A stretch of 23,554 nt of DNA, from positions 1 through 23,554 of the IMG/VR virus record IMGVR_UViG_3300042465_002716; one strand, 5' to 3'. Positions within the stretch are counted from its first letter, which is position 1. The number at the start of each line of letters is the position of its first letter. Origin of the DNA: a virus. The notes beneath the pieces were generated by a model. The model was given only the letters and a program-made list of their open reading frames with translations. It was not told the origin of the DNA and did no database searches. The position numbers and the translations under genes were made by a program. Of this stretch, positions 886-22,985 are shown piece after piece.

Positions 886-893
886 TATTTAAC
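886..893 (-). promoter_or_regulatory. Late promoter box GTTAAATA
   Basis: Minus-strand box whose last A lies 9 bases before the ATG at 877. Predicted transcription start is about 3 bases before that ATG. Confidence 0.5.
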
Positions 894-915
894 TCATAGA
901 AATTCAGCCAACAAA

Positions 916-935
916 AAAGGACCTTGCGGTCCTTT
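916..935 (-). terminator. Rho-independent terminator
   Basis: Seen: 8-bp stem AAAGGACC (916-923) / GGTCCTTT (928-935), 4-base loop. On the minus strand it is followed by a T run. It lies 30 bases past the stop of the gene at 965-1366 and isolates it from the gene at 485-877. Confidence 0.9.
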
Positions 936-964
936 AATGCTTCCCATCCCTGAGAATTAACTAA

Positions 965-1366
965 TTACAGTGCTGGTGTAAAGACTGCTTCAACAGTAAC
1001 AGTGCAACCACCAATACCGGCTGCTGCGTCTGTTGTGTCAAATGTACCAGTGCCTTGAACACGCATGTATAATACGTCTGTTGTTCCGCTAACAAAAGCT
1101 GAACCGTCTGCTGTACCAATTGCTGCTACAGTGAATGCATCACCTGTGTTAGCTGGTAGTGCACCTGCTGAACCGCCTGCTAGTGTAATTGCGTTACGAA
1201 TTGTTGTAACGTTTGCGTCTGTCATGTTTGTCAATGCAATTTTAATAATCAACTCGCGACCTACGTCAGCTTGGTTGATTCTGTGCTTGTTAAAGTTAGC
1301 ACCAAAAGTTACATAGGTTGAACCGTCGTTACCTACAATTTCATTTCTACTTGTTACGTCTGCCAT
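965..1366 (-). CDS. Probable virion (decoration-type) protein
   Basis: 133 residues rich in Ala, Gly, Thr and Val, with alternating beta-type segments (STYVTFGANF, DVLYMRVQGTG, GCTVTVEAVF) and no enzyme motif. The gene is a self-contained transcription unit: perfect late box, 67-base leader with a small hairpin, strong AAGGAG ribosome site 9 bases before the ATG, and its own terminator. That arrangement is expected of a highly expressed late structural protein such as a decoration or minor capsid protein. The structural role is inferred from composition and expression signals; I do not recognise the family. Confidence 0.75.
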   Translation of the reverse strand: MADVTSRNEIVGNDGSTYVTFGANFNKHRINQADVGRELIIKIALTNMTDANVTTIRNAITLAGGSAGALPANTGDAFTVAAIGTADGSAFVSGTTDVLYMRVQGTGTFDTTDAAAGIGGCTVTVEAVFTPAL

Positions 1367-1438
1367 GATAAATTCTCCTTGATCAATGACCTCGCTCAGA
1401 GGCCGGCAATATTAGGAATCACCTGATCCCTATGCAAG

Positions 1439-1446
1439 TATTTATA
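1439..1446 (-). promoter_or_regulatory. Late promoter box TATAAATA
   Basis: Perfect T4-type late box on the minus strand. Predicted start near 1433; 67-base leader to the gene at 965-1366. The leader holds a short hairpin (CCTC/GAGG, about 1391-1403). Confidence 0.75.
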
Positions 1447-1476
1447 TTGGATTGGAAAAATCAGGGTGTTTGACCG

Positions 1477-2574
1477 TTAATCGGCTCTAAACGGAGTCCA
1501 CCGATCTCTAGGCACATATTTGTCGCCGCCTATGATATAGCCCTCGCCACCGGGCTTGCCGTCTGTAGTGGCTGTGATTTCACCTTCAGCTGCGTCCAGC
1601 TCTCGGATTACTTCATCTTTAGCAGACATAATTTCTTTTACCAACTGAAATAAAATATCCATTACTCCTGGATGACGTTCACTGTGTGCAGCTATTTTAG
1701 CAGCTTTGGCGGGAGTCTTTTGTTCAAAGGCCAGGAACGCATCAGTGTTGATGTTATCTAATTGTTTAGCCTTGCTTTGACTATTCACAAAGTTATAGAT
1801 CTCTGTCCGTAGATAACCCATGCCTGCGACAGGAGCCAGCAGGCCGTTGATCTTTGACTGATTCTTGGCCAAAGCTTCAATCTTGGCCAGATTTTCTGCA
1901 CCCACAGCTGGTCTGTGACTGACTGCTGTGAGTCCAAATACTTCAAGTGCAGGAGTGTTATTAAACAGTTCTGGATTATCAAAGTCTTCTCCACTCTTGT
2001 CTCCGAAATAACCGAATACCTTGTGAGCTGCCACAGCTACCTTGGCCTTGGCCAGTGCTCGGCCTGTGTCGCTGTTGACTAAAACTGAGTAAGTGACTTG
2101 ATTAGGGGTGAATGAGATCCTACCATCTGCACCTGTGTATGGCTTGCCTGGGTGGAACAGGAGATCACCGTAGACATAGCCACGGAAATCTTTGGGCGTA
2201 GCAGCTTCGAATATGGGCCACATCGCGGCCATATCACTGGCAAATTTGGATCGCCAGTCTTCACCTTTGCCGCGACTCATGATAAATGATTTTAATTCAT
2301 CTGGGCTAGAGCTTTTACCTTCCTCACGTCCCCAGTTGTTCTTGCCCACCATGCGGAATGTGCCGTCATCATCACGTCCCCAATACACTGTGGGGTTGCC
2401 ATCCCATTTGATTGTGATGCTGGTTTCGGGTTTGGCCACAGCTTTTAGAGCTTGTATAACTTTAATTGCACCATCATCTTCTGCAAACACCTTGTCTTCA
2501 AGGTGGTTGAACTCTCTGCCAACTTTCTTGGCAGGAGGCGCATCATCTTCTAATAATAGTTCCCAGAATCTCAT
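1477..2574 (-). CDS. Ligase/capping-like covalent nucleotidyltransferase (DUF6267-like)
   Basis: 365 residues from the ATG at 2574, which overlaps the upstream stop as ATGA. Motifs resemble the DNA/RNA ligase and capping-enzyme superfamily. K56-W-D-G59 in ITIKWDGNPTVYWG would be motif I, the covalently nucleotidylated lysine. YVYGDLLF near 134-140 resembles motif III, with Asp where Glu is usual. GGEGYIIGGDKYVPR near 342-356 resembles motifs IV and V. Similar proteins in T4-like marine phages are, as I recall, filed as DUF6267 with no assigned function; RNA- or DNA-end joining is my inference. The N-terminus MRFWELLLE|D resembles a T4 capsid-targeting sequence with an LxE cleavage site. Third gene of an operon with a pol-beta nucleotidyltransferase. 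Confidence 0.7.
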   Translation of the reverse strand: MRFWELLLEDDAPPAKKVGREFNHLEDKVFAEDDGAIKVIQALKAVAKPETSITIKWDGNPTVYWGRDDDGTFRMVGKNNWGREEGKSSSPDELKSFIMSRGKGEDWRSKFASDMAAMWPIFEAATPKDFRGYVYGDLLFHPGKPYTGADGRISFTPNQVTYSVLVNSDTGRALAKAKVAVAAHKVFGYFGDKSGEDFDNPELFNNTPALEVFGLTAVSHRPAVGAENLAKIEALAKNQSKINGLLAPVAGMGYLRTEIYNFVNSQSKAKQLDNINTDAFLAFEQKTPAKAAKIAAHSERHPGVMDILFQLVKEIMSAKDEVIRELDAAEGEITATTDGKPGGEGYIIGGDKYVPRDRWTPFRAD

Positions 2575-3386
2575 TTTACTATTTCTATGAGTTGACGCAT
2601 CCAACCTATACTTCCTGGTTGGTAGCTTTCTATTTGATTGGCCTTAGGCAACTCTATGCCCTGCTTGCCTAGTGTTTCTCTAGCCCCTGCGACTAATTCT
2701 TCATAGTTGGGCAGTTTTTTAATGTAGTTAAGGATGGCATCCACTGAACGGATGTCTTTGATGGTAGCAGTCTGTCCCAGCAATTCTTTGGCAATTTGAT
2801 TCCAATCATTGCCGTTGGGCAGCAGTTCATCTGTTTGTGGATTTAATATCCCGTGCTTGGGACTATACTTCATGTTCTTGGCTCTAGCTATAGAACTCAA
2901 TAGAATGTGGCGATGTTCGCCACGATACTCTCCACCACCACTGATCATTGATCCTTGTTGGAACTTGGGATTAGCTGAAAACATAAAGTCTGCTTGCACA
3001 AATCCGTTGGCGCTGTCACCTTTGATAGGCACCTTCCAATGCACATTGTCACCGCTTAATTTGATGTTCTCTTTGCCGAACTGTGATATTAACTTGTCGG
3101 CGAAAGATCTTTTGTCTACTTCATTGGCATCCACGCTGAGGTCTAGATCGCCCGAACTGTTGCGTTCAAATGTGCCATCTGGATCTTCTTTGCGTCCAGT
3201 AGTGCCTAACCACTTCACTGGCTTTTTATCGTCTAGATCTTTCTCTTTGGTAAAGTCCAGTCCTGTGATCTTTTCAATGTAGTCCACTGTGCTTTCTACA
3301 TCTGCAGTGGCAATGCGCTGTGTTAGGGGCTGCTTGTCTGAACCCTTGAATACATTGCCGCCTTCTAGTAATTTACTCTGATTCAT
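2571..3386 (-). CDS. DNA polymerase beta-superfamily nucleotidyltransferase
   Basis: 271 residues. The LGTTG segment at 60-64 followed by SSGDLDLSVD at 77-86 fits the G-[ST] plus DxD signature of the pol-beta nucleotidyltransferase fold (metal ligands D80 and D82). VQADFMF places a third acidic residue at D133. The family adds nucleotides to RNA, protein or small molecules; nothing in the sequence fixes the substrate. The N-terminus MNQSKLLE|GG could be a capsid-targeting and cleavage site. Overlaps the upstream gene by 14 bases and the downstream gene by 4, so it is translationally coupled to both. Being next to a ligase-like enzyme suggests joint action on nucleic-acid ends (inference). Confidence 0.8.
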   Translation of the reverse strand: MNQSKLLEGGNVFKGSDKQPLTQRIATADVESTVDYIEKITGLDFTKEKDLDDKKPVKWLGTTGRKEDPDGTFERNSSGDLDLSVDANEVDKRSFADKLISQFGKENIKLSGDNVHWKVPIKGDSANGFVQADFMFSANPKFQQGSMISGGGEYRGEHRHILLSSIARAKNMKYSPKHGILNPQTDELLPNGNDWNQIAKELLGQTATIKDIRSVDAILNYIKKLPNYEELVAGARETLGKQGIELPKANQIESYQPGSIGWMRQLIEIVK

Positions 3387-3651
3387 TTAACGGTCTCTTG
3401 GTTCTTTTAGATTCGGCAATCTTACGTATGCCTCGTGTGAATTTGGCAGGATCCTGACCGCGTATGGCATTTAACAATCTACGTTCTAGCTCATCTGCCT
3501 GTTCCGCAGTGTAGTGTTTCTTCAACGTTTCCAGCAGATTAATAGCTGAATTGATGATGTTAGTGGCACGGCTTTCAAACAGTTCATCCTTGTTACGGAT
3601 TTCCGCTAATTCATTTAATTCCTGCAGGATCGATCTTGTTTTTAGTTTCAT
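3373..3651 (-). CDS. Small helical basic protein, first gene of the nucleotidyltransferase operon
   Basis: 92 residues, almost wholly alpha-helical by composition, with a basic C-terminal third (KFTRGIRKIAESKRTKRP). No known domain. The N-terminus MKLKTRSILQE|L carries an LxE site of the type cut by the T4 gp21 prohead protease, so it may be an internal head protein (inference). GGAAAGG ribosome site upstream of the ATG. It can be read from a late box 19 bases upstream (3670-3677) or a sigma70 promoter (3696-3724), which suggests both early and late expression of the operon. Confidence 0.75.
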   Translation of the reverse strand: MKLKTRSILQELNELAEIRNKDELFESRATNIINSAINLLETLKKHYTAEQADELERRLLNAIRGQDPAKFTRGIRKIAESKRTKRPLNESE

Positions 3652-3669: not shown

Positions 3670-3677
3670 TATTTAAC
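3670..3677 (-). promoter_or_regulatory. Late promoter box GTTAAATA
   Basis: Predicted start near 3664, giving a 12-base leader that holds the ribosome site of the gene at 3373-3651. Confidence 0.55.
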
Positions 3678-3695: not shown

Positions 3696-3724
3696 ATTAT
3701 ACACTGTTTGTTCTATTTAATCAA
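3696..3724 (-). promoter_or_regulatory. Sigma70 promoter TTGATT-N17-TATAAT
   Basis: Minus-strand -35 at 3719-3724 and perfect -10 at 3696-3701, spacer exactly 17. Predicted start about 3689. Drives the operon 3651 to 1477, placing the nucleotidyltransferase genes also under host RNA polymerase. Confidence 0.75.
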
Positions 3725-3741: not shown

Positions 3742-3749
3742 GGTAAATA
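3742..3749 (+). promoter_or_regulatory. Late-type box GGTAAATA
   Basis: Plus-strand box about 46 bases before the ATG at 3795; predicted start near 3755. Divergent from the minus-strand promoters at 3670-3724. Confidence 0.45.
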
Positions 3750-3794: not shown

Positions 3795-3971
3795 ATGAAG
3801 ACTATATCAGAAAAAATGCTAGCCATCTTGGAACGTCTATCCGAAATGTTCCCAGGATCTAGCTATCAAAGCAGTTTAGATGCATATCTAAGCACCAAAG
3901 GCATTACCGATGCCGCACAGTTGGAAGGTTATATCCGACAATTCAATTCTCAAAAGGAAAATTATCTATGA
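3795..3971 (+). CDS. Small conserved-type protein, 58 residues
   Basis: ATG at 3795 with AGAGGAAAAGT upstream; the stop overlaps the next ATG (ATGA). The product begins MKTISEKMLAILERLSEMFP and continues with a polar helical half containing the segment LDAYLSTKGITDAAQLEGYI. It looks like a small two-to-three-helix protein with no membrane segment, cysteines or known motif. Its ribosome site, coupled stop/start and codon-like composition support a real gene despite the size. Function unknown. Confidence 0.7.
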   Translation: MKTISEKMLAILERLSEMFPGSSYQSSLDAYLSTKGITDAAQLEGYIRQFNSQKENYL

Positions 3972-4087: not shown

Positions 4088-4093
4088 TAAATA
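4086..4093 (+). promoter_or_regulatory. Late promoter box GATAAATA, leaderless geometry
   Basis: Shares bases with the TGA stop (4085-4087) of the preceding gene. The last A is 6 bases before the ATG at 4099, so the predicted start is the A of that ATG. Confidence 0.65.
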
Positions 4094-4098
4094 TTGGC

Positions 4099-4674
4099 AT
4101 GAACTTGGTGTATATTCACGGGGCAAATGCCACCAGCGAAAGTTTCAATTATATTAAGAGTAAACTGGGCACTGGGCTAGACATCAACTACGATAGTCGC
4201 AATGGGTTTGAAAATAACCTAAAAGACATGCAGTCAACATTGCAGAACTATCAGAACCTAGTGTTTGTTGCACATAGTTTAGGCGGTATTTACGCATTAC
4301 ATCTAGCTAATGCTATGCCCAATAGTGTTAAGGGTGCTGTTACATTGAGCACACCCTACGGTGGTGCAGAAGTGGCGGATTATGCTCAATACTTTTTGCC
4401 ATTCAGTAGACTAATGCGTGATATTGGCCCTAGTTCGTGGGTAATGAAGCAGGCTAGTAAGATTAAGATACAGCATCCCTGGACTAATATAGTAACAGTT
4501 AAAGGACAAAGTCCATTCATGCATGAGCCCAATGACGGAGTAGTTACTATTGCCAGTCAAAAACATCATGCAGACATGGAATTGATAGAAGTAGACTACA
4601 ACCACTATGAAGTAGTGCTCAGTGACCAAGTGGTTAAACTTATTAAAGAACGAACAAACAAGTTCAAAAAATAA
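4099..4674 (+). CDS. Alpha/beta-hydrolase (lipase/esterase-like)
   Basis: 191 residues. YIHG at 5-8 is the oxyanion-hole segment; VAHSLGG at 57-63 holds the nucleophile elbow (S60). D146 in EPNDGVVT and H169 in DYNHYEV complete a plausible Ser-Asp-His triad with the right order and spacing for the family. No signal peptide, so it acts in the cytoplasm or on the inner membrane face. The length is near the minimum for the fold and the cap is small, like bacterial PGAP1/lipase class hydrolases. Substrate unknown; lipid or ester cleavage is family knowledge. I chose ATG 4099 over a TTG at 4084 because the late box occupies 4086-4093 and predicts a start exactly at 4099. No SD precedes it. Confidence 0.85.
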   Translation: MNLVYIHGANATSESFNYIKSKLGTGLDINYDSRNGFENNLKDMQSTLQNYQNLVFVAHSLGGIYALHLANAMPNSVKGAVTLSTPYGGAEVADYAQYFLPFSRLMRDIGPSSWVMKQASKIKIQHPWTNIVTVKGQSPFMHEPNDGVVTIASQKHHADMELIEVDYNHYEVVLSDQVVKLIKERTNKFKK

Positions 4675-5097: not shown

Positions 5098-5799
5098 TTA
5101 TCTAACTGTTGCTAATCTAAAAAATCTTAGTATAGAAATGTAGGCCCAGCCAATGTCAAACTCCCACCACTTCTGGCTGAACTTGGCATTGGCACCATCG
5201 GCATGATGATTGGAGTGTAATTCCTCGCCACCGATCCAGAATCCCCAGGGTATTAAATTCCTCGAAGTGTCGGGTGTTTCAACATTGCGGTAACCCCACC
5301 AATGACTAAGTCCATTAACTACCCCAGCTGCCCAGAATGGAATCCAGATCATTTGAATACCCCACACGAGCAGTCCCCACGGTCCAAAGAGCAAGCAGTC
5401 TATGACCAGCATTAAAAGAATACCTGAGCGACTGTGTGCGGAGTAAAGGTTGCGTTCGATCCAATCATTAGGGCAGTCCTTGCTTAATGAATCAACCATG
5501 GCTGTGTCTTTGCTGGCAGAATGATAAAGAAATGCCCCGCCAAATAACACACGCCAAATGCCATAGATCTGTGGACTATGCGGATCGCCCTCTTGGTCCG
5601 AACGTTGATGATGTCGGCGATGTATGGCCACCCATTGACGAGTGACCATGCCTGTGGTCAGCCAAAGCCAGGCTCGCATAATGTGGTTAACCGCAGGGTG
5701 AAATTGCACTGCTCTATGTGTTTGGCTTCTGTGCAAATATAGCGTTACACAGGCTATGGTGATTTGAACCATCACTAGGGTATAGATTATTATGTTCAT
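5098..5799 (-). CDS. Membrane fatty-acid (acyl-CoA type) desaturase
   Basis: 233 residues. Three histidine boxes of the membrane di-iron desaturases are intact: HRSQTH (23-28), HRRHH (60-64) and HSNHH (195-199), plus the usual extra His in NGLSHWWGY (near 166). Hydrophobic helices lie at about 1-21, 40-52 and 126-162. The family (delta-9 type, O2-dependent) puts double bonds into acyl chains at the inner membrane and raises fluidity. It is shorter than bacterial DesC-like enzymes (about 300 residues), mostly at the ends, with no catalytic box lost. T4-like phages of aquatic bacteria are known to carry such genes. A late-like box with one mismatch ends 5 bases before the ATG; no SD seen. Confidence 0.93.
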   Translation of the reverse strand: MNIIIYTLVMVQITIACVTLYLHRSQTHRAVQFHPAVNHIMRAWLWLTTGMVTRQWVAIHRRHHQRSDQEGDPHSPQIYGIWRVLFGGAFLYHSASKDTAMVDSLSKDCPNDWIERNLYSAHSRSGILLMLVIDCLLFGPWGLLVWGIQMIWIPFWAAGVVNGLSHWWGYRNVETPDTSRNLIPWGFWIGGEELHSNHHADGANAKFSQKWWEFDIGWAYISILRFFRLATVR

Positions 5800-5814: not shown

Positions 5815-5843
5815 TTGACAACAGCCCAAACTAATGCTATAAT
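5815..5843 (+). promoter_or_regulatory. Perfect sigma70 promoter TTGACA-N17-TATAAT, leaderless
   Basis: -35 at 5815-5820, -10 at 5838-5843, spacer 17. The -10 ends 5 bases before the ATG at 5849, so the predicted start (about 5850) coincides with the start codon. No ribosome site can fit. Confidence 0.85.
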
Positions 5844-5848: not shown

Positions 5849-6433
5849 ATGAAACAAAAAATTATACTCACAGACGCAGACGGTGTTCTATTAGATTGGG
5901 AATGGGCATTCTCAGTCTGGATGCAAGAACGCGGTTACACACTGACCGCAGATAATAAAAAAAGCTATTATCTACATCACCACTACAACGAGCTAGAAGA
6001 AAAAGATTCCAAAAAAGTCATCAAGACATTCAACGAGTCGGCTGCTATTGGCTTCCTTCCTGCTCTACGTGACTCAGCTCACTATGTCAAGAAACTGCAC
6101 GAAAAACACGGTTATCAATTCCGAGTGATCACCAGTCTAAGTCTAGATAAAAACGCACAGAAGCTTAGAGAAAAGAATCTACGCAAGTTGTTTGGTAACG
6201 CTATTGAAACAGTGATCTGTTTAGACACTGGTGCAGACAAAGATGATGCACTTGCACCTTATAAAGATAGTGATCTGTATTGGATTGAAGACAAGCCTGC
6301 CAATGCCGATGTTGGCTATAACTTAGGATTACAATCTATTCTTATCGAACACGGACATAACATGCATCACAAATGTTCTTATCCAGTTGTAAAGAATTGG
6401 AAAGAGATCTATGGTATTATTGTAGGTCGCTGA
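5849..6433 (+). CDS. HAD-superfamily phosphatase (5'-nucleotidase-like)
   Basis: 194 residues. Motif I is LTDADGVLLD (nucleophile D9, acid/base D11), motif II VITSLS (T95, S96), a lysine at K131 in TGADKDD, and motif IV WIEDKPAN (E147, D148). These give a complete HAD active site for phosphate-ester hydrolysis. The cap is the short helical type seen in 5'(3')-deoxyribonucleotidases, so a nucleotide substrate is plausible. Close relatives with the same opening are common in T4-like cyanophages (memory). The gene is read from a perfect sigma70 promoter with no leader. Its last 17 bases overlap the convergent gene at 6417. Confidence 0.88.
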   Translation: MKQKIILTDADGVLLDWEWAFSVWMQERGYTLTADNKKSYYLHHHYNELEEKDSKKVIKTFNESAAIGFLPALRDSAHYVKKLHEKHGYQFRVITSLSLDKNAQKLREKNLRKLFGNAIETVICLDTGADKDDALAPYKDSDLYWIEDKPANADVGYNLGLQSILIEHGHNMHHKCSYPVVKNWKEIYGIIVGR

Positions 6434-7052
6434 CAAAATCCAACAGCAGTTCATGATGTCGCCCACCGTGATAGTGAGGCTTCATCCAGCTATGATATTC
6501 GTTGTACCAACTGAGTTGACTCTCTGGGTGACATCCAATTAGCCCTATGTTGTTTTGTATTACGGCCATAGCATCACCATTGGCATAGGTAGCAACAGTT
6601 TTAAATTTTGTAGTATCACCTACTAAAGCACATCCATCGTAGAAATACATTCGTTCTTGTTGCCCTTGCCAAGTTATAGGTAATGCTTTGGCATGCGGTC
6701 TACGTGTGTCTGTGCCAGGGCGGGTGATGTATTGCACAGCCTCTATGCCATCTACGATATCAAAATAGTCTTCCGCAGCCCAGTATGCTCCCATACATAT
6801 GCCAAGATACCTTCCGCCTCGACCAACAAAGTCCCTGACTCGATCTCCGTTGTGTGCCAGCAGGTGATCAAAACTATCGGCATCACCAATACCTCCTGGT
6901 ACAGCTATCATGTCAACATCATCAAAGAAGTCAGCATCAACGTGCCAGCGTGTGAATATTTTAAAACTGTGGTATGGTTGTAGTGCTTGGAGGATGCCGT
7001 TGCCGGACTCTACTGAACATTTAGGCTGATGCAAGAACAATGCTATCTTCAT
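6417..7052 (-). CDS. Class I glutamine-amidotransferase-like protein (BPL_N type)
   Basis: 211 residues from the ATG at 7052. VPGGIGDADSF (51-61) and GRYLGICMGAY (80-90, with C86 at the nucleophile elbow) followed by GCHPES (173-178) form the Cys-His-Glu arrangement of class I amidotransferase-like folds. The pattern best fits the BPL_N group, named for the N-terminal domain of yeast biotin-protein ligase, whose activity is not established. No partner synthetase domain is fused. A similar protein is common in T4-like marine phages (memory). Longer readings to 7106 are rejected: a near-late box (TATAAAGA) ends 5 bases before this ATG. Converges with the HAD gene. Confidence 0.83.
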   Translation of the reverse strand: MKIALFLHQPKCSVESGNGILQALQPYHSFKIFTRWHVDADFFDDVDMIAVPGGIGDADSFDHLLAHNGDRVRDFVGRGGRYLGICMGAYWAAEDYFDIVDGIEAVQYITRPGTDTRRPHAKALPITWQGQQERMYFYDGCALVGDTTKFKTVATYANGDAMAVIQNNIGLIGCHPESQLSWYNEYHSWMKPHYHGGRHHELLLDFVSDLQ

Positions 7053-7169
7053 ACAGTCTTTATAAAAGTGCTCACTTAGAACGCCATTCCGGGGCACGAC
7101 TCCCATAACGTTCTGCCCAGCAGCCGGGCAACCCTGAAGTAACGCTAACGTTCCTAAGGTAGGGTGTTC
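7053..7169. other. Intergenic segment with hairpin and 23S-rRNA-like (I-CeuI-site-like) string
   Basis: 117 bases between two minus-strand genes, long for this genome. Contains a hairpin TGCCC (7114-7118) / GGGCA (7126-7130), two copies of TAACGTTC (7106-7113 and 7146-7153), and at 7140-7166 a 27-base string with 21 identities to the 23S rRNA segment cut by I-CeuI, including an unbroken TCCTAAGGTAG. No coding sign. Role unknown. Confidence 0.5.
7057..7064 (-). promoter_or_regulatory. Variant late box TATAAAGA
   Basis: One mismatch from TATAAATA. The last base is 5 from the ATG at 7052, again predicting a start at the codon. Confidence 0.35.
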
Positions 7170-8282
7170 TTATTCTTGTGCTTTCTCGATGGTATAGTCT
7201 GCTTCTGTGCTATCTGGATATCGAGCTGTTAACTTGGCAATGATGTCTTGGCGGCTTTCACCTTGGATACGAGCAGTCCTACCTGATGCAGTCTGTGTTA
7301 CTACATACGTTCCAGGACCGTCATTGGCATCTGGTTCAGGCGCTGCTGGCTTTTCTTCGCCTGAAGCATAACTTAACGGGAATCGTTTTTTCAAATCTGC
7401 TATAGCAGCCGGAATATCATACCCGCCACGGGCCACATCTTCGCTGGCTGTTTTTAGTTCTGCTGCCTTGCTTTGGATACCTGCGACAATGCGCTTCATC
7501 AGTCCAGGAAACAGTTCTGAGAACTTCTCGTCTGATCGTATGCTTTGATTGCCGTTGTTGATTTGATTAGTAGGAGCATGTATCTGCCATTTGCCATTAA
7601 CATCATCTGAATTTTCTTTGTCAAACACAGATATCACAGGACCGTCTGGAGCATAGGTTTTAAACCAGCGTTCACCTGAGCTTGATCCTGTGCAGAAGCT
7701 GGCTTGGAAACCTGCGGAGTTGTTGAATGTGTAGCATGAACCGTAGTTCATAGGAACTACGATAAGGAATCGTTCATCATCTACGATGGTGATTTCTTTG
7801 CGATCACGTTTGTGTTTTTCAATGACTTCAGCATCTTTGATACGGTTAAGTTCATCGCGATAATTGCGCTGCTGAATGATAGATTGTATTTGACGTAGAT
7901 TTTTAAACTTGTTGAAGTCTTGATCTTTTTCTGCTAGTTTGCCACGTATGCTCAGGGCCTTCCAAGCACCTAGAGCGTCGCCACCTTCGCCGTTGATGTC
8001 TTCAAAGTCGGCCACGCCATTGATATACATGCGAGTCAACCATTCGTCAAACTTGCCATCAGTGGAGATGTTGCCATAGTCTGTGCTGCTGAGACTGAGG
8101 TCTAGGAGATCACTCCATAGTTTAACTATCTCGTCATCTGAGGGTTTAGGTCCTAGTTTGGCCACACGATCTTTGGGCAATGTGCCATCATGGCGCATGG
8201 CTATGCTCAACATCTTGACCATCTTGGGATCTTTGAGTTTGGCTGCTATGTTGGCTTCGAGAACTATTTGATTGAGTTTCAT
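7170..8282 (-). CDS. Phage protein with FCTG...GPV core, possible internal head protein
   Basis: 370 residues. The middle (about 165-240) reads FLIVVPMNYGSCYTF, FCTGSSSGERWFKTY, GPVISVFDK and KWQIHAP. This matches, from memory, a widespread phage domain with a KWCT-like motif followed by F..Y...GPL and QxH, for which no function is known. C197 and H235 are candidates for a conserved site. The N-terminus MKLNQIVLE|A resembles a capsid-targeting sequence (VLE rather than strict L/IxE). The C-terminal 70 residues look like a separate small domain after an acidic linker (about 310-325). Its ATG overlaps the preceding stop (ATGA); AAAGGAG lies 15 bases upstream. Confidence 0.8.
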   Translation of the reverse strand: MKLNQIVLEANIAAKLKDPKMVKMLSIAMRHDGTLPKDRVAKLGPKPSDDEIVKLWSDLLDLSLSSTDYGNISTDGKFDEWLTRMYINGVADFEDINGEGGDALGAWKALSIRGKLAEKDQDFNKFKNLRQIQSIIQQRNYRDELNRIKDAEVIEKHKRDRKEITIVDDERFLIVVPMNYGSCYTFNNSAGFQASFCTGSSSGERWFKTYAPDGPVISVFDKENSDDVNGKWQIHAPTNQINNGNQSIRSDEKFSELFPGLMKRIVAGIQSKAAELKTASEDVARGGYDIPAAIADLKKRFPLSYASGEEKPAAPEPDANDGPGTYVVTQTASGRTARIQGESRQDIIAKLTARYPDSTEADYTIEKAQE

Positions 8283-9151
8283 CCTGAAATCAAACTCCTT
8301 TTAAAGAATGTCAGCACTGTGCCTAATTTCTTTTGATCGCCGCCTGCGATGTCTTTCATCAGTTGGCTACCGCCCTCAGATCGCTGTGCATTATAGCCGT
8401 CGCGATAGCCGCTGCGACTTATAGCGCCAGTCTGTTCGGGGTAGTGATGACTGGCTGCCATTAACACAGCAACATTAATAGCAGCTCTGACTGAGTTAGG
8501 TGTGTCAGAATCTGTTTCCAACGACTCAATGGCTTGTTGCAGTCGTTTCACATGTTCTAGTTTTTTGGCAGCTTTGTCAAAGGCATCGTTCTTGATCTGA
8601 TTGGCGATATGTCCTTTGACGTCTGCGATAGCAGCAGTAATTGCTTTGGCCCACAGTGGCTTGAATTTTTTAGTCAGGGTGTCTACACTGACCATCGAAG
8701 TGTCAGTGCCAGCCTGTTGATCTTTACGTTTCTTTCGTTTGTCATTCACTGTAGAAGTATTGTTTCCCACATAGAACTTGTTTAGTTTGCCTATTTTTGA
8801 TTTCAAAAAATCAATGACGTTGCCGCCTCGGCCATCTGCAAAACTGTCTACTTCTCCACCTGAGCTAGCAGTGGCTTCATAACTACCGCTAGTGGTAGCA
8901 CGGATGGCTCCTGTGCCTGTGGTGCCTTTGATTATGACCCAAGCACCTCTTCTGGCGTCTTTGAGTTCACTCCATGATATCTTTTCTACTTGTCGATAAT
9001 CCTGATCATGTGCAAGGCCCATGTCTGTGTGAAGGAATTTAACTACTTGTTTGCCACCAGGATTGTCTAGTATCAAGTTGAGACTGGTGCTGGCTTCGTT
9101 GAGATAGCCTTCAAGCAGTTGTGAAAATAATTGATAAGATTCTGTGCGCAT
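8279..9151 (-). CDS. Unknown protein with capsid-targeting-like N-terminus
   Basis: 290 residues from the ATG at 9151. The late box ends 5 bases before this ATG, which argues against an upstream in-frame ATG at 9199 that would lie inside the nuclease gene. The start MRTESYQLFSQLLE|G has an amphipathic helix and an LLE site of the T4 prohead-protease type. A basic stretch (DKRKKRKDQQ, about 140-150) and long helices (about 165-240) suggest nucleic-acid binding, but no catalytic motif is visible. It forms a two-gene unit with the FCTG protein. An internal, DNA-associated head protein is my inference. Confidence 0.75.
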   Translation of the reverse strand: MRTESYQLFSQLLEGYLNEASTSLNLILDNPGGKQVVKFLHTDMGLAHDQDYRQVEKISWSELKDARRGAWVIIKGTTGTGAIRATTSGSYEATASSGGEVDSFADGRGGNVIDFLKSKIGKLNKFYVGNNTSTVNDKRKKRKDQQAGTDTSMVSVDTLTKKFKPLWAKAITAAIADVKGHIANQIKNDAFDKAAKKLEHVKRLQQAIESLETDSDTPNSVRAAINVAVLMAASHHYPEQTGAISRSGYRDGYNAQRSEGGSQLMKDIAGGDQKKLGTVLTFFKRSLISG

Positions 9152-15253: not shown

Positions 15254-15261
15254 TATTTATG
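15254..15261 (-). promoter_or_regulatory. Late promoter box CATAAATA
   Basis: Predicted start near 15248 with a 12-base leader holding GGGAG. It overlaps the divergent plus-strand box for hemA. Confidence 0.6.
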
Positions 15262-15267
15262 TAAATA
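15260..15267 (+). promoter_or_regulatory. Late promoter box TGTAAATA for hemA
   Basis: The last A is 8 bases before the ATG at 15275, so the leader would be about 2 bases. It shares two bases with the opposite box at 15254-15261, forming a back-to-back late promoter. Confidence 0.5.
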
Positions 15268-15274: not shown

Positions 15275-16486
15275 ATGATCAATAAAGCTCCCTTTAATAA
15301 TCTACTCAAAACACTCAAAGACACGGGCAAATACCGTGTGTTCAACGACATTATCCGCGAAAAGGGCAAGTTTCCTTCAGCCATGTGGTACGGACCCTAC
15401 AACATCAAAAGCATCACAAACTGGTGCAGCAACGACTATTTGGGCATGGGTCAGCACAAAGTTGTGTTAGATGCCATGCATACTGCTCTAGATCACACAG
15501 GCGCAGGATCAGGTGGCACACGTAATATTGCAGGAACCAGTCACTATCACGTGGCCTTGGAATACGAGCTGGCCACTCTACACAACAAGGCACGAGCTCT
15601 GCTGTTCTCATCAGCCTATGTGGCCAACGAGTGGACTTTGATTGCTCTAAGCAAGATCATACCCAACATACATTTTGTTTCGGACAGTGAGAACCACAAC
15701 AGCCTAGTCATAGGCATGGTTCACAGCCGAGCACCTAAGACTGTATTTCGTCACAACGATCTCAATCACCTAGAAGACATATTAACCAGCATACAACTCA
15801 CAGGCAACGTGCCCTGCATTGTATTTGAATCAGTTTACTCAATGGATGGCGACGTAGGACACATCAAAGAAATCTGCGATCTAGCAGACAAATATGGTGC
15901 TATGACCTACATCGATGAAGTACATGCGGTAGGACTCTATGGACCCCACGGTGGTGGGAAAGTTGAAGAGCTAGGGCTACAATCCCGTGTTGACATAGTC
16001 AACGGTACATTAGGGAAAGCCTATGGGGTCCAAGGTGGCTATATAGCTGCCGATGCAGAGGTCATTGACGCCATCCGTTCTGTAGCTGCTGGATTTATCT
16101 TTACCACATCAATGAGCCCTGTGAGCTGTGCAGGTGCATTAGCTGCGGTCAAGTATCTAAAGGATCATCAAGAGCTGAGAGACAAGCATCAAGAACGCAG
16201 TCGTAAACTCAAACATAGATTGGCTGTGGCTGGCATGCCTGCAATGGAATGCACCAGCACACACATTGTTCCTATCCTAGTTGGGGAAGCTGTGCGTTGC
16301 AAGGCCATCAGCGATGAACTACTCAACGAGCACAACATCTATATCCAGCCTATCAATAATCCCACTGTGGCAGTGGGCACAGAGCGGTTACGTCTAGCAC
16401 CTACTCCGTTCCACGATGATGGTATGATTGAAGATCTAATTACTGCTCTGGCTGCTTCATTTGCGTGTCACCCGGCGCAAGTCTAA
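15275..16486 (+). CDS. hemA: 5-aminolevulinate synthase (ALAS)
   Basis: 403 residues, full family length. PLP enzyme that condenses glycine and succinyl-CoA to 5-aminolevulinate, the first step of the C4 route to heme. Seen: R21, CSNDYLG with N53, [11 protein letters not shown] with T82 and N84 (the ALAS-type pair, unlike AONS or KBL), NH141, [19 protein letters not shown] (D214, H217), the PLP lysine K248 in TLGKAYG, and ERLRLAPTP near the end. All key residues are present, so it should be active. ATG 15275 follows a late box; a TTG six bases upstream is less likely. Overlaps the convergent cupin gene by 47 bases. Probably an auxiliary metabolic gene from a C4-pathway (alphaproteobacterial-type) source. 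Confidence 0.95.
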
Positions 16487-16823
16487 ATCGATCTTCAACG
16501 TAGTCCGAGGTGCTAACTTCAAAGATCACACTGTTGGCAACCAGTGCTTCGATTTGATGCGGACCAAGAGCTCCGAAATCTGCAGTTTTGCCTTCTTCTA
16601 GGATGGCTTCCTTGGCTTCACCTGTGCTAACATCAATGTAGGTTACCTTGAATCTACCAGCATTGATAAACCAACTCTTGTATTTTTCTTTGTGAAACAC
16701 CAAACTGGTTTTGGCTCCTGCACGTTCGAATACAAGGAGTTTTCCGCAGTATTTGTCGTTGTTGGCCCATACCAATTCAAATCCCCACCCTTTGTCTATT
16801 TTACCTAATGTTTGTAAGTTCAT
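16440..16823 (-). CDS. Single-domain cupin protein
   Basis: 127 residues. [22 protein letters not shown], then [23 protein letters not shown], then LGPHQIEAL give the cupin double-stranded beta-helix pattern: motif 1 with H44 and later Glu/Lys, motif 2 with PHQ. The layout resembles the cupin domain of type II mannose-6-phosphate isomerase/sugar-phosphate cupins, and similar proteins occur in T4-like marine phages. A sugar-phosphate substrate is only suggested. The ATG overlaps the clpP stop (ATGA), so it is the second gene of the clpP unit. Confidence 0.82.
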
Positions 16824-17407
16824 GGTCGTTTCTCGATTATTTTATCTACTAGGCCATAGGCCAGTGCTTCTTCTGCTGACATGAAGGTGTCACGATCCAT
16901 GTCACGCTCGAAGTCTTGATAGGTCTTGCCTGCGGTATTGTGTTTAACATAAAGTTCAGTTAAGATTGTTTTCATCTTAGTGATCTCTTTGTATTGGATT
17001 TCAATGTCACTTTGCATACCGCGAGCGCCACCTGAAGGCTGATGTATCATGTGACGTGCATAGGGCAACATGTATCGTTTACCTTTGGCACCTGCTTGTG
17101 CTAGAAAGCTGCCCATTGAGCAGGCCTGCCCCATCACATAGGTAGCAACAGGACAACGAATAAACTGCATGGTATCATAGATACTCATGCCGGCAGTGAT
17201 AACACCACCTGGGCTGTTGATAAACATGCTGATTTCTTTATCTGGATTTTCGCTTTCTAAGAACAGCAATTGGGCCACAACCAGATTGGCCATGTGATCT
17301 TCTACAGGACCATTCAACATGATAATACGCTCTTTGAGCAAACGACTAAAGATGTCGTAGGCCCGCTCACCTTTTGATGTAGATTCAACTACCATTGGTA
17401 CTAACAT
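16820..17407 (-). CDS. clpP: ClpP serine protease subunit
   Basis: 195 residues from the ATG at 17407, which has AAAGGA upstream; an in-frame TTG 18 bases earlier is less likely. The catalytic triad is intact and at canonical numbering: S97 in [10 protein letters not shown]122 in MIHQPSGG, D171 in DRDTFM. INSPGG (63-68) is the oxyanion loop. Tetradecameric barrel protease that needs an AAA+ unfoldase (ClpX or ClpA); none is encoded in the window, so it would use the host's. The sequence is of cellular ClpP type, not the usual prohead protease. Transcribed from a strong early sigma70 promoter (17432-17460), followed by the cupin gene. Confidence 0.95.
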
Positions 17408-17514: not shown

Positions 17515-17522
17515 GTTAAATA
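17515..17522 (+). promoter_or_regulatory. Late box GTTAAATA, leaderless geometry
   Basis: The last A is 5 bases before the ATG at 17527. The stretch AAATATATCATG is identical to that before the gene at 9151 on the other strand. Confidence 0.5.
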
Positions 17523-17526: not shown

Positions 17527-18039
17527 ATGAGCACCCTTTTATTAAACGCAGACATGCAACCTGTAAGCCTTTTACCCTTGAGTGTGGTAGATTGGCAGGA
17601 AGCCATACGATACATGGTTCTGGACAAGGTCAAGGTCTTGGAATGGCATGACGATTGGATTGTCCACAGTGCCAGATGGCAGACTCGTGTGCCTGCTGTG
17701 ATCATGTTGAACACATATCAAAAACCCAAACATACCATGCGGTTGAGCAAACGCAACATATTCCTGCGTGATGCCTACACCTGTCAATACTGTGGCACAA
17801 ATGTCACAGAAACCAACGCCACTTTGGATCACGTGCATCCTGTGAGCCTGGGCGGCAAGACCACTTGGGAAAACTCGACCACAGCCTGCAAACATTGTAA
17901 CTATCGCAAGGCAGCTCATGTGGGTAAAATGAAGCCAAAGATTGCTCCTTACAAGCCTACATTTTGGGATCTAGTTGCCAAACGCAGGGTTAGAGGCTAT
18001 CACCTGGGCCATCCTAGCTGGGCGGACTATTTAGGATAA
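17527..18039 (+). CDS. HNH endonuclease
   Basis: 170 residues. The HNH fold occupies about 84-130: C86-x2-C89 and C121-x2-C124 bind structural zinc, DHVHPVSLGG (101-110) carries the catalytic D101/H102, and ENSTTACKHCN supplies the central Asn (N116) and the second Cys pair. The N-terminal 60 residues match the leader region of the bacterial stand-alone HNH family (LNADMQPVSL...). Could be a free-standing homing or DNA-processing nuclease; no intron is seen. It has both an early sigma70 promoter and a late box. No SD is visible before the ATG. Confidence 0.9.
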   Translation: MSTLLLNADMQPVSLLPLSVVDWQEAIRYMVLDKVKVLEWHDDWIVHSARWQTRVPAVIMLNTYQKPKHTMRLSKRNIFLRDAYTCQYCGTNVTETNATLDHVHPVSLGGKTTWENSTTACKHCNYRKAAHVGKMKPKIAPYKPTFWDLVAKRRVRGYHLGHPSWADYLG

Positions 18040-20294: not shown

Positions 20295-20576
20295 ATGAAC
20301 AACGACCGAGAACAATTAGACGTCAGCGCCAGCGAAGAAGGCGAACAGGCACAGGCCATTGCTATGATACGTGATGCACAGGCTCTAGATGCTGTGCGTC
20401 AAAAGCTGGCCAAACAGCGCAGTCAGCCCAGCTTGACAGAGTGTGATGCATGTGGGGAAGATATTCCCGAGGCTCGCAGACTAGCTGTGCCGGGTGTTAC
20501 CATGTGTATCTATTGCCAATCAAAGTCAGAACGCTTTACAGCCAACTATCGACAGCCTGGTGACAGCTCAGAGTAA
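20295..20576 (+). CDS. DksA/TraR-type C4 zinc-finger protein
   Basis: 93 residues from the ATG at 20295, with GAGGAAG about 8 bases upstream. A coiled-coil-like helix (about 12-42) precedes a four-cysteine finger (C50-x2-C53 ... C71-x2-C74) in CDACGEDIPEARRLAVPG and MCIYCQ, the DksA/TraR signature. Such proteins enter the secondary channel of RNA polymerase and alter promoter choice; TraR-like phage proteins do so without ppGpp. Likely a regulator that redirects host transcription. Last gene of the ligase operon; the end overlaps the convergent gene by 41 bases. Confidence 0.85.
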   Translation: MNNDREQLDVSASEEGEQAQAIAMIRDAQALDAVRQKLAKQRSQPSLTECDACGEDIPEARRLAVPGVTMCIYCQSKSERFTANYRQPGDSSE

Positions 20577-21099
20577 CCACTCCACCCCATAGGTCTTCCA
20601 CAGGCTGTTCAAACAGCCACTCAGGGCCTAGATTTTGTGCGGTCAACCACGACTGCTCTTTGCGCCATACCCCCTGACCCTCAATCTCCTGATCCAGCTG
20701 CCCTGGGCCCCATGAAGCATAGCCCATGAACAGTCTAAAGTGGCGGGGCATGTCATGATCCATCATGCAATGAAACATTTCCAGTGAACTGGTCATGGCC
20801 CAGGCTGATGTAATCATCACGGTGTCACTGCATACCCAGTCTGAGCTGTGCAGCATCCATACACTTTGTGAGCCCATGGGCCCGCCCCAATACACAGGCA
20901 TAGGGGGTAGCCCTGTGTGATCTATGTCGGCATGTTTGAGTATTTCATCTAGGGTGTGACCCAAGGGTCTATTCACACACAGGCCATGAGCACCTCGTTC
21001 ATCGCTGTGGGTCAACATCAGCACTGAATCCCTGAATCGGGGGTCAGGCATGTTTGGGGGTGCTATCAGCAGATCAGTGGGGTTTAGGGCCAGTGTCAT
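20536..21099 (-). CDS. YqgE/AlgH family protein (UPF0301)
   Basis: 187 residues from the ATG at 21099 (ATGA overlap with the gene upstream). LLIAPPNMPDPRFRDSVLMLTHSDERGAHGLCVNRPLG (about 10-47) is the family signature, then PVYWGGPMG and the later FMGYASWGPGQLDQEI. Length matches bacterial YqgE (about 187). AlgH is linked to alginate control in Pseudomonas, but the biochemical role of the family is not settled. It is a chromosomal bacterial gene family that is unusual in a phage, here as the last gene of a late-type operon. No missing conserved segment noted. Confidence 0.9.
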   Translation of the reverse strand: MTLALNPTDLLIAPPNMPDPRFRDSVLMLTHSDERGAHGLCVNRPLGHTLDEILKHADIDHTGLPPMPVYWGGPMGSQSVWMLHSSDWVCSDTVMITSAWAMTSSLEMFHCMMDHDMPRHFRLFMGYASWGPGQLDQEIEGQGVWRKEQSWLTAQNLGPEWLFEQPVEDLWGGVVTLSCHQAVDSWL

Positions 21100-21581: not shown

Positions 21582-21808
21582 GCCAGTTTTGCTCCAATCA
21601 TCACGCAGGATACCAATAGGTTCTTGATGTCTTGATCATCTGCTTGTGCGTTGAGTTGATCTGATCTAACCAGATCCTGCATGAGCTCTTGATATTCTTC
21701 AAGACTGATACCCCCACCCTCATATTGCTGCATTATGGCCAGAGCCATTTGAGCACGTTCACGAGCCCATGGTGGTCCCGATTGTGCTAGTTCATGTAGT
21801 TGTTGCAT
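21578..21808 (-). CDS. Small conserved T4-like phage protein
   Basis: 76 residues from the ATG at 21808 (TAATG overlap), preferred because GGGAG is 6 bases upstream, while an ATG at 21814 is directly adjacent to that site. MQQLHELAQSGPPWARERAQMALAIMQQY, then GGISLEEYQELMQDLVR and KNLLVS, all helical. I recall this protein as widespread in T4-like marine phages with no role assigned. ATGA overlap with the next gene. Confidence 0.8.
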   Translation of the reverse strand: MQQLHELAQSGPPWARERAQMALAIMQQYEGGGISLEEYQELMQDLVRSDQLNAQADDQDIKNLLVSCVMIGAKLA

Positions 21809-22197
21809 TACCATCTCCCTAGTATGCCCGCAGCTGCTCGCTGGGCCTGTTGTTGCATGACGGTTCGTTTGAGTTCACAGTAAGTGACACTGGCCTGGCC
21901 CTTGGATGTGCGTGTATACATGTCTTCCACAGTGGCCTGCATGGGTGCGATCAACCGGATCACATCTTTTTGTAGAGCACCTTTGCTAGCACTGTAGAGT
22001 TCAAACCAACGCAGGTCATCACGTATGCGAGTGATCTGAGCCAGTTGATCCCCAGCACAGTTGAGTCGATCTATGCCCAGTCTAACGTCTACAATGCGGG
22101 CACTTTGATTGTCGTCCCAGAATGAAGGTATCCATGTGCTCACAGTGGCACAACCCGATATCAGCACAGAGACTATGATAGTAAAGATGAGTTTCAT
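21808..22197 (-). CDS. Lipoprotein of T4-like phages
   Basis: 129 residues. Type II signal peptide MKLIFTIIVSVLISGC with lipobox ISG-C (C16), followed by WIPSFWDDNQSARIVDVRLGI and a helical domain with two further Cys (about 47 and 107) that may form a disulfide. It should be acylated at the inner or outer membrane. Lipoproteins of this kind (Trp-Ile-Pro-Ser-Phe-Trp-Asp-Asp) recur in T4-like phages (memory), function unknown; a lysis/spanin-related or superinfection role is possible but not shown. The late box ends 6 bases before the ATG, so a leaderless start is predicted. First gene of the operon ending in AlgH. Confidence 0.82.
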   Translation of the reverse strand: MKLIFTIIVSVLISGCATVSTWIPSFWDDNQSARIVDVRLGIDRLNCAGDQLAQITRIRDDLRWFELYSASKGALQKDVIRLIAPMQATVEDMYTRTSKGQASVTYCELKRTVMQQQAQRAAAGILGRW

Positions 22198-22202
22198 GTA
22201 GA

Positions 22203-22210
22203 TATTTACC
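22203..22210 (-). promoter_or_regulatory. Late box GGTAAATA, leaderless geometry
   Basis: The last A is 6 bases before the ATG at 22197, predicting transcription from that A. Lies just after the stop (22212-22214) of the upstream gene. Confidence 0.6.
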
Positions 22211-22211
22211 C

Positions 22212-22433
22212 TTATTCAGGCCAATCGCAGGCCACGATCATGGCGCCCAAAGCTGCTTCTGCACGAGGGATACTGGGCTCATCAAAAGGTTGATCATAGA
22301 CCGCCAGTTGATAGCGAACATTGGGTGCAGAACCCACAGTGATGACCAAGCTGCGATTCTCAGGCACCGCAGCCCATGCTCGTATCGCAGCAAGATCTTC
22401 ATGTCGGGGAATATCATAGAGTTGACGGTTCAT
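22212..22433 (-). CDS. Small protein of unknown function
   Basis: 73 residues from the ATG at 22433; a longer reading from 22451 is rejected because the late box (22438-22445) would be inside it. MNRQLYDIPRHEDLAAIRAWAAVPE, then LVITVGSAPNVRYQLAVYDQ and a C-terminal ALGAMIVACDWPE. Mixed alpha/beta, acidic, no known motif. The late box ends 5 bases before the ATG and no SD is seen. Confidence 0.65.
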   Translation of the reverse strand: MNRQLYDIPRHEDLAAIRAWAAVPENRSLVITVGSAPNVRYQLAVYDQPFDEPSIPRAEAALGAMIVACDWPE

Positions 22434-22437
22434 CTTG

Positions 22438-22445
22438 TATTTACA
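22438..22445 (-). promoter_or_regulatory. Late box TGTAAATA, leaderless geometry
   Basis: The last A is 5 bases before the ATG at 22433. Confidence 0.5.
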
Positions 22446-22465
22446 CCACACAGGTTAATTTTGTA

Positions 22466-22478
22466 GCTGCGAAGCAGC
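22466..22478 (-). terminator. Weak hairpin after the gene at 22505
   Basis: Stem GCTGC/GCAGC, three-base loop. On the minus strand it is followed by TACAAAATT rather than a T run, so termination is doubtful. Confidence 0.3.
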
Positions 22479-22504
22479 AGCGCGAGATTGTTGTGCAGAA
22501 AATT

Positions 22505-22750
22505 TTACACATAATCCTCGCCAGGAACACGATGTATGATATCCCAGTAGCGTAACACAAACTCTGACTCTAATGTGCTGTCAGTGGGTATCCAATATCT
22601 GCAACGATTCAGGTGCACTTCCATGGGCAGGTTATTGGCCTGTGCCCAAGACCAAGCGGAGTCACCGCCGTGATCCAAGTGTTCATTGAGTATGCCATAA
22701 CAGCGCATGGGTGTTTGCACTGTGCGTTCTGCTGTGGTTAGTTTGCGCAT
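22505..22750 (-). CDS. Small protein of unknown function
   Basis: 81 residues from the ATG at 22750, exactly where the late box predicts the start; longer readings upstream would run through that box and the divergent promoter. MRKLTTAERTVQTPMRC, HLDHGGDSAWSWAQANNL, LNRCRYWIPTD, VLRYWDIIHRVPGED. Trp/His-rich, soluble, no recognised motif. No SD. Divergent from the gene at 22815. Confidence 0.65.
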   Translation of the reverse strand: MRKLTTAERTVQTPMRCYGILNEHLDHGGDSAWSWAQANNLPMEVHLNRCRYWIPTDSTLESEFVLRYWDIIHRVPGEDYV

Positions 22751-22755
22751 GGAAG

Positions 22756-22763
22756 TATTTAAG
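22756..22763 (-). promoter_or_regulatory. Late box CTTAAATA, leaderless geometry
   Basis: The last A is 6 bases before the ATG at 22750. Confidence 0.5.
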
Positions 22764-22801
22764 TTTTTACTGAGCGTAGAAGCCCATAAACAGGAAGGGC
22801 A

Positions 22802-22809
22802 ATTAAATA
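22802..22809 (+). promoter_or_regulatory. Late box ATTAAATA, leaderless geometry
   Basis: The last A is 6 bases before the ATG at 22815. Together with the box at 22756-22763 it forms a divergent pair in a 64-base gap between genes. Confidence 0.55.
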
Positions 22810-22814
22810 TTAAC

Positions 22815-22985
22815 ATGAGCACAGAGTATAACATACGCACAGATTGGGATGCACATGGTGAACGATACACTGTGCTGAAGAACAATCGTGTGGTGATCAT
22901 CACTCGCTGTAGAAGCATTATCACGAAATGGTTTCCCTTGATGTGGATGGACACTAGTGGGATACCTGATGTGGTTGGGATCTAG
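22815..22985 (+). CDS. Small protein, 56 residues
   Basis: Start ATG 22815 is set by the late box six bases before; an in-frame upstream reading would cross that box and the opposite gene. MSTEYNIRTDWDAHGERYTVLKNNR, then VVIITRCRSIITKWF, then MWMDTSGIPDVVGI. Hydrophobic middle with charged flanks, perhaps a small beta protein. Unknown. Confidence 0.55.
   Translation: MSTEYNIRTDWDAHGERYTVLKNNRVVIITRCRSIITKWFPLMWMDTSGIPDVVGI

Follow-up and report, generated by a model that had tools for sequence, protein, structure and literature searches.

Late transcription in phage T4 is a textbook system, in which the promoter is an 8-bp TATA box placed about one turn upstream of the start site, with positions counted from -13 (PMC2988020). 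Leaderless transcripts, and the promoters that produce them, have been described in bacteria (PMC12340547, PMC3616915), and the authors of the AR9 study state that phage transcripts are often leaderless (PMC5312081). The Melnitz paper describes 15 late promoters in a relative of phage HTVC008M, and the word "leaderless" occurs in it only once, in the title of a reference (PMC9004378). Among the titles, abstract openings and passages inspected in the openly licensed PMC literature, we found no report of leaderless mRNAs made from T4-type late promoters. Here we analyzed IMGVR_UViG_3300042465_002716, a virus record of 23,554 bases (the whole stretch is called the window from here on), in which the box TAAATA lies 5 to 9 bases before the ATG of ten genes. 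This placement is far above chance in the window's relatives. We consider it highly probable that, in these large relatives of T4, a lineage represented only in metagenomes, gp55-type late promoters yield leaderless or nearly leaderless mRNAs alongside leadered mRNAs that are often led by a Shine-Dalgarno (SD) sequence.

Throughout, distance means the interval from the last A of TAAATA to the A of ATG, and an SD motif is GGAG, GAGG or AGGA at positions -18 to -5. Relatives were sought with the protein encoded at 8279-9151 of the window, which returned 74 related loci; the viral contigs carrying them reach 280 kb. The five longest of those contigs (G001-G005), together with the window, make up the clade set of 947,600 bases; the last 19 bases of G001 and the last 1,938 of G003 are missing from the counts. 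An ATG was accepted if it opened at least 50 codons, with no gene caller, and a 40-codon minimum applied instead where the orthologue-class list was used (orthologue pairs, SD-preceded ATGs and parts of the class and terminator counts). The window genes were picked by hand and their reading frames checked. A set of further loci comprised 558,112 bases from the 56 of the 74 loci that gave more than 500 bases, after stretches at least 90% identical to counted sequence had been dropped.

Split by the presence of an SD motif and taken over the relatives' records, the distances followed a sharply bimodal distribution, not a flat one. In the clade set, 34 boxes lie at distance 5, 61 at 6, 4 at 7, 13 at 8 and 5 at 9. 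The range from 10 to 16 is sparse, with 11 sites in all, and a second hump rises from about 17 (134 sites at 17-34). Distances 5 and 6 together hold 95 of the 559 TAAATA sites; when each box was moved randomly by 15-500 bases in 1,000 trials, the mean was 4.8 and the maximum 14. The further loci repeated the pattern, with 18 of their 441 sites at 5, 47 at 6 (65 together), 21 at 7-9, 13 at 10-16 (9 of these at 11) and 153 at 17-40. The peak also held its position at 5-6 while the letters of the spacer vary among relatives. The idea that box and start codon simply co-occur in an AT-rich genome draws on the window alone, where the excess of the box is under two-fold (22 sites on both strands against 13.2 +/- 3.5 expected, a number reached in 1 of 100 shuffles). 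Chance of this kind is refuted by the displaced-box and further-loci counts, is also rejected by the hexamer ranking and permutations given next, and receives practically no weight from us.

The signal was specific to the hexamer. When all hexamers were ranked by likelihood at distances 5-6 in G001-G005, leaving out the window, TAAATA came first (87 against 8.6 expected) and those ranked 2 to 8 were SD-like. Among the 18 one-change variants the clearest enrichment was seen for TATATA (15 against 4.2 expected) and TAAGTA (15 against 2.5). Among the 14 other permutations of the hexamer, AAATAT, ATAAAT and ATAATA peaked, and these overlap a shifted TAAATA or a sigma70 -10 box; the remaining 11 never exceeded 18 at a distance between 1 and 15, where TAAATA reaches 61. 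The permutations bear on the proposal that the AT-rich element acts in translation, for instance as an A/U-rich site for the ribosome or S1, and is not a promoter. The element does adjoin the start codons of genes that lack an SD, but permuted hexamers have no independent peak, the same box recurs 17-80 bases upstream of SD genes, sigma70 -10 boxes have a spacing peak of their own and terminators sit directly upstream of some boxes, as described below. We regard a translation signal as very improbable.

The two humps also separate genes by their SD motifs. In the clade set, the motif precedes 6 of the 117 genes whose box is at 5-9 and 107 of the 203 whose box is at 17-80 (p = 3e-20); without the window the numbers are 6 of 107 and 103 of 197. 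The further loci gave no SD in any of the 67 cases at 4-6, the 21 at 7-9 or the 13 at 10-16, compared with 73 of 153 at 17-40 and 37 of 43 at 41-60. In the window, all ten close boxes named in the original prediction are present at the distances it gave (Table 1), and these genes, most of which it had described as lacking an SD, all lack one: the motif is found in none of the eight at distance 5-6 and neither of the two at 7-9. Its companion claim, that five genes with a distant box have an SD, was borne out for the starts at 360, 1366 and 15236, where the SD is clear, and less so at 9602 and 14210, which have only AAGG and AGGG. Two distant-box SD genes that it had missed start at 3651(-) and 3795(+). 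Altogether, the seven distant-box genes of the window (box 18-92 upstream) comprise five with a clear and two with a weak SD. Three more sites, at 505(-), 4287(-) and 18028(-), have no predicted gene start within 100 bases downstream.

The arrangement is maintained in evolution. Among orthologue pairs in which both members are boxed (HTVC008M included), 103 are close/close, 157 distant/distant and 20 close/distant, while 17 involve a distance of 10-16; in this list the G002 terminase gene is entered as distant because its second box was met first, its nearest box actually being at 5. Thus, orthologues mostly keep their class. If transcription starts six bases after the box, the sparse 10-16 range would separate leaders that are nearly nil from leaders of SD size. 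For the window's own genes, we counted distinct upstream regions among the matches listed, near-identical copies of the window included, after dropping matches that start past query residue 12, those with less than 30 bases upstream and repeats of an identical 60 bases. The 5-aminolevulinate synthase gene starting at 15275 has a close box in 23 of 24 upstreams, with varying spacers. The gene at 14478 has one in 4 of 4 (one being the window itself) and the gene at 22197 in 3 of 4, the fourth aligning from a shifted residue and also being boxed; its orthologues have distance 6-7 in G001, G002, G003 and G005. For the gene at 22815 the single upstream listed has a close box, and the same distance (6) occurs in G001. 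For the genes at 22433(-) and 22750(-), no orthologue was found in the relatives searched.

Next, we considered where the RNA would begin. In T4 the late box occupies -13 to -6, and +1 lies six bases past its last A. Bacterial RNA polymerase usually starts on a purine (+1) that follows a pyrimidine (-1). The distance-6 class, the largest, has T directly before ATG in 48 of 62 cases and T or C in 56 of 62, as expected if the A of ATG is +1; for comparison, the numbers at SD-preceded ATGs are 175 and 300 of 613. Thus, the expectation that T4 geometry would start transcription at or near the AUG is supported by the relatives' sequence, with an exact 5' AUG predicted for the distance-6 class alone. 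A box at distance 5 requires the RNA to begin one base sooner, and for the 877 gene, whose box is at 9, a leader of 3-5 nt is probable. In the window and G001-G005, 8 of the 12 cases at distance 8 have ACT directly before the ATG, perhaps a class with a fixed 3-nt leader. Start codons at distance 5-6 in G001-G005 are ATG (87), GTG (4), CTG (3) and TTG (2), and leaderless mRNAs are described as preferring AUG in two studies (PMC9031893; PMC3616915).

Terminators point in the same direction. Of the 117 close-box genes, 13 have a strong terminator no more than 55 bases upstream of the box. The same holds for 4 of the 203 distant-box genes and for 7 of 3,000 randomly chosen positions. The 13 include the large terminase gene (three records), a tail protein gene (four) and the window gene 485-877, and an mRNA derived from further upstream would need to pass the terminator to reach them.

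A number of observations weigh against leaderless transcription from these boxes, or narrow it. The close-box gene follows a same-strand frame within 60 nt in 48 of 117 cases, and readthrough could reach those genes. This favors the alternative that the mRNA comes mostly from upstream promoters by readthrough and that the short spacing reflects compact gene packing. The other 69 of the 117 are not so placed, terminators stand directly upstream of the box in the cases just described, and packing alone would not make a sparse 10-16 range plus a sharp peak at 5-6, nor is there such a peak in T4 or Syn9. We therefore consider readthrough improbable as the main source. The distance-5 class has no significant pyrimidine preference before ATG (19 of 33), and strict T4 spacing would there make the U of AUG the first base of the RNA, so that the start predicted for this class is less definite. 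This class, together with the distances of 7-9 (21 cases), agrees with a narrower version of our explanation, not exclusive of it, in which transcription mostly starts one to five bases before the AUG and very short leaders result. The 877 family adds to this: among 19 distinct upstreams listed, 12 carry the box at 11 and the other 7 at 6-9, so that the family sits mostly within the otherwise sparse range. Very short leaders as the prevailing form nevertheless seem rather unlikely to us, given the pyrimidine preference of the distance-6 class.

Further counterpoints concern how general the rule is. Since 96 of 203 distant-box clade genes have no clear SD, the pairing of a distant box with an SD is only a tendency. 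Several window genes also lack the close box in many of the distinct upstreams listed for their relatives. At 9151 it is present in 16 of 44 and missing in 28; in most of the latter that were inspected, the ATG comes immediately after the stop codon of the preceding gene. At 4099 it is present in 7 of 16 (window included) and missing in 9, two of which have TATATA there. At 17527 it is present in 5 of 22 and missing in 17, and the copies in G001-G005 have their box at distance 18-24. Finally, no match over the cut-off to the gp33 and gp45 families was obtained in G001-G005, in a search where T4, Syn9 and HTVC008M were positive (a first clamp search had lacked a positive control), and iterative search recovered none either; one gp33-family match in G001 fell below the cut-off (E 0.06). 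This means that the full T4 late machine is not demonstrated in the clade, and the non-detection could possibly reflect divergence or missing parts.

The core virion genes place these phages with T4. Homologues of gp23, gp20, gp17, gp18, gp19 and gp21 are all present in each of G001-G004, as in the T4 superfamily. None of these six core virion genes was found in G005 or the window, and both are placed in the superfamily through their relatives. A homologue of the late sigma factor gp55 lies beside gp47-gp46 in G001 and G002, and that of G001 matches the late-sigma family phrog_12791 (1.7e-80). No gp55 was found in G003-G005, whose completeness is unknown, or in the window. Among the nearest named relatives of the G001 protein are those of the jumbo phages PA5oct (48.5% identity), Phosso (44.0%) and 121Q (42.2%).

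We also asked about a second promoter type, scanning for TATAAT with at least four of six matches to TTGACA at a spacing of 16-18 bases. The clade set has 243 such sites, of which 6, 21 and 2 lie 6, 7 and 8 bases before an ATG (29 of 243). Elsewhere, sites at 6-8 amount to 1 of 53 in T4, 1 of 49 in HTVC008M, 0 of 28 in Syn9, 0 of 27 in S-PM2 and 1 of 31 in S-TIM5. Sigma70 promoters start about 7 bases past the -10 box. With the peak at 7, the two promoter types would each hit the AUG by their own spacing. The habit that had been assigned to the late regulon is thus present there and not confined to it, as sigma70-type promoters share it, including the one before the window gene at 5849(+). Because the spacing of these promoters is equivalent, the lineage as a whole appears to favor leaderless starts.

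Our model suggests that TAAATA forms the core of a late promoter of the gp55 (T4-like) type. A large set of these promoters would place the RNA start on, or a few bases from, the A of AUG and leave no ribosome-binding leader, while a second set under the same box would give leaders from about 11 nt upwards, some half of which contain a clear SD. The leaderless mRNAs would be read through direct recognition of the 5' AUG and the others largely through SD-led initiation. That the box is an active promoter, where exactly +1 falls and which route translation takes are what we infer from the sequences. Two translation modes within one late regulon, as originally proposed, are supported by the SD split, the kept classes, the peak at 5-6, the upstream terminators and the gp55 homologues.

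The identity of the genes in each class may hint at a function. We scanned 20 of the 29 listed proteins, and a family was found for 7 of 10 and 4 of 10 in two batches. Close-box, leaderless-type genes include gp17, gp13, two virion structural proteins and a tail-tube-like protein. Under the late box, SD-led genes include gp18, a single-strand binding protein, a baseplate-hub protein and tail-fibre-like proteins. The genes for gp23 and gp19 have an SD and no TAAATA within 120 bases upstream, and for gp6 the box is close in G002 and distant in G001. A trend in which low-copy proteins would be leaderless-type and abundant proteins tend to be SD-led is only suggestive in this small sample, with the SD-led baseplate-hub protein and the leaderless-type tail-tube-like protein as exceptions. 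We tentatively propose, as an idea that could easily prove wrong, that the lineage rewired its late-sigma as well as its sigma70 promoters to place AUG at the very start of many transcription units, and that the choice between leaderless and SD-led sets late protein amounts (leaderless for the neck protein and the terminase; SD-led under the late box for the tail sheath and the single-strand binding protein; SD-led for the capsid and the tail tube).

If the 5' ends are real, one late sigma factor would feed two translation-initiation routes within a single infection, so that the competition of leaderless with SD-led mRNAs for ribosomes could be studied in a natural setting. The trait would also provide gene finders with a start-site rule for a group of uncultivated phages, and would point to hosts whose ribosomes readily accept leaderless mRNA.

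Table 1. Promoter-like elements and associated genes in the window (distances in bases from the box to the ATG).
Feature	Position	Strand	Remark
Late-type box, 9 before ATG of 485-877(-)	886-891	-	terminator-like hairpin just upstream
Gene with putative short or absent leader	485-877	-	
Terminator-like hairpin and T-run	916-935	-	directly upstream of the 886 box
Late-type box, 6 before ATG of 4099-4674(+)	4088-4093	+	
Alpha/beta hydrolase-like protein	4099-4674	+	PF12697, 27 bits (cut-off 26.3)
Late-type box, 5 before ATG of 8279-9151(-)	9156-9161	-	
Late-type box, 6 before ATG of 14233-14478(-)	14484-14489	-	
Late-type box, 8 before ATG of 15275-16486(+)	15262-15267	+	back to back with the 15254(-) box
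5-Aminolevulinate synthase	15275-16486	+	TIGR01821, 565.5 bits (cut-off 338.55)
Late-type box, 5 before ATG of 17527-18039(+), HNH endonuclease	17517-17522	+	
Late-type box, 6 before ATG of 21808-22197(-)	22203-22208	-	
Late-type box, 5 before ATG of 22212-22433(-)	22438-22443	-	
Late-type box, 6 before ATG of 22505-22750(-)	22756-22761	-	
Late-type box, 6 before ATG of 22815-22985(+)	22804-22809	+	
Distant late-type box (92) for 40-360(-)	452-457	-	SD present
Distant late-type box (73) for 965-1366(-)	1439-1444	-	SD present; distance 73 in G001 too
Distant late-type box (19) for 3373-3651(-)	3670-3675	-	SD present; second box 3714-3719
Distant late-type box (46) for 3795-3971(+)	3744-3749	+	SD present
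Distant late-type box (25) for 9159-9602(-)	9627-9632	-	weak SD
Distant late-type box (20) for 11031-14210(-), collagen-like tail fibre	14230-14235	-	weak SD
Distant late-type box (18) for 14490-15236(-), PA14/GLEYA protein	15254-15259	-	SD present
Sigma70-type promoter, 12/12 matches, -10 ends 6 before ATG of 5849-6433(+)	5815-5843	+	no late box

Other features of the window deserve mention. At its edge (6-27(-)), a late box (site 22(-)) is followed directly by a hairpin with a T-run. The same order of box, hairpin and T-run right before an ATG is found at orthologous gene starts in G001, G003 and G005; as the layouts agree, the gene served by the window site probably lies just beyond the edge, and a terminator or attenuator may sit within such a leader. 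Between the PA14/GLEYA gene and the synthase gene, two late boxes stand back to back and face apart (15254-15267), and this TATTTA/TAAATA pair is found upstream of the synthase in 23 of the 24 distinct upstreams listed. The window also carries host-like or metabolic genes for a DesA-like fatty acid desaturase (5098-5799(-)), ClpP (16820-17407(-)) and YqgE/AlgH (20536-21099(-)). The protein of 485-877(-) matched no PHROG or Pfam family at the thresholds used, and a stretch at 7050-7180 that looked rRNA-like by eye was rejected, having no Rfam match.

The synthase gives a hint of the host. It occurs in many relatives, and the best 80 bacterial copies are nearly all from Alphaproteobacteria, mostly at 52-57% identity, with one 65% match in a Rhodobacteraceae bin. 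This points to Alphaproteobacteria. The best bacterial match (L176) has no TAAATA in the 200 bases around its start. An alphaproteobacterial host as the simple cause of the close boxes is unsupported, as the Sinorhizobium phages Phosso and phiM12 and the Caulobacter phage Cr30 have no peak (Cr30 with only 27 sites). Ribosomal protein S21 (PF01165) is encoded by G001 (15466-15624(-)) and G005 (100066-100221(+)), and also by HTVC008M, Mosig, PA5oct and Phosso. A causal role for phage S21 is likewise unsupported, since it is present in PA5oct and Phosso and was not found in G002-G004 or T4. No phage-encoded IF3 was found in G001-G005. Phosso encodes an IF3 domain (PV764938 382560-382817(+); PF00707, 1.8e-31), yet it has no close-box class.

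Finally, we compared the clade with other phages and known systems. The numbers of sites at distance 5-6 among all TAAATA sites were 13 of 186 in HTVC008M, 6 of 236 in Mosig, 3 of 225 in T4, 5 of 611 in PA5oct, 2 of 122 in Phosso, 1 of 149 in S-PM2 and none in 121Q (231 sites), Syn9 (132), S-TIM5 (232), phiM12 (65) or Cr30 (27); for three phages a portion was counted (S-PM2, 160,000 of 196,280 bases; Mosig, 140,000 of 141,461; Phosso, 400,000 of 469,473). In the hexamer scan T4 (3 against 3.3 expected), PA5oct (5 against 5.1) and Phosso (2 against 3.5) were at expectation, and in HTVC008M TAAATA ranked first (14 against 1.9). A general T4-like trait was thus rejected, with no peak in T4, Syn9, S-PM2, S-TIM5, PA5oct, 121Q, Phosso, Cr30 or phiM12.

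With the T4 late promoters (gp55/gp33/gp45; TATAAATA) the clade shares the core of the box, and two relatives have gp55 homologues; the core of a box like TATAAATA, TAAATA, is the top-scoring hexamer 5-6 before ATG in the clade. The late promoters of cyanophages, given as NATAAATA in one study (PMC2984593), are another likeness. T4 and the three cyanophages Syn9, S-PM2 and S-TIM5 differ from the clade in having no pile-up of boxes 5-6 before ATG (0-3 sites each), and the jumbo phages PA5oct, Phosso and 121Q have close kin of the G001 gp55, yet no close-box excess. The Thermus phage phiYS40 is similar in that its middle and late mRNAs are described as leaderless (PMC3594737); it belongs to another host group, and in the clade leaderless-type and leadered genes share one late box. 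In Deinococcus-Thermus, a -10 motif about 6-7 bp before the open reading frame is reported to give leaderless mRNA (PMC12340547). That element is a bacterial housekeeping-type -10 and not one for a phage late sigma, and the sigma70-type set of the clade comes close to it. Of the Pelagibacter phages, HTVC008M shares the close-box class, with an SD in 2 of 13 cases at 5-6 against 12 of 24 at 17-40, and so does Mosig, where all six sites lie at distance 6 and TAAATA ranks only 58th. Both differ from the clade in the smaller size of the class, and HTVC008M also in having no sigma70 counterpart. Thus, the trait marks this clade and, more weakly, the HTVC008M-type pelagiphages.

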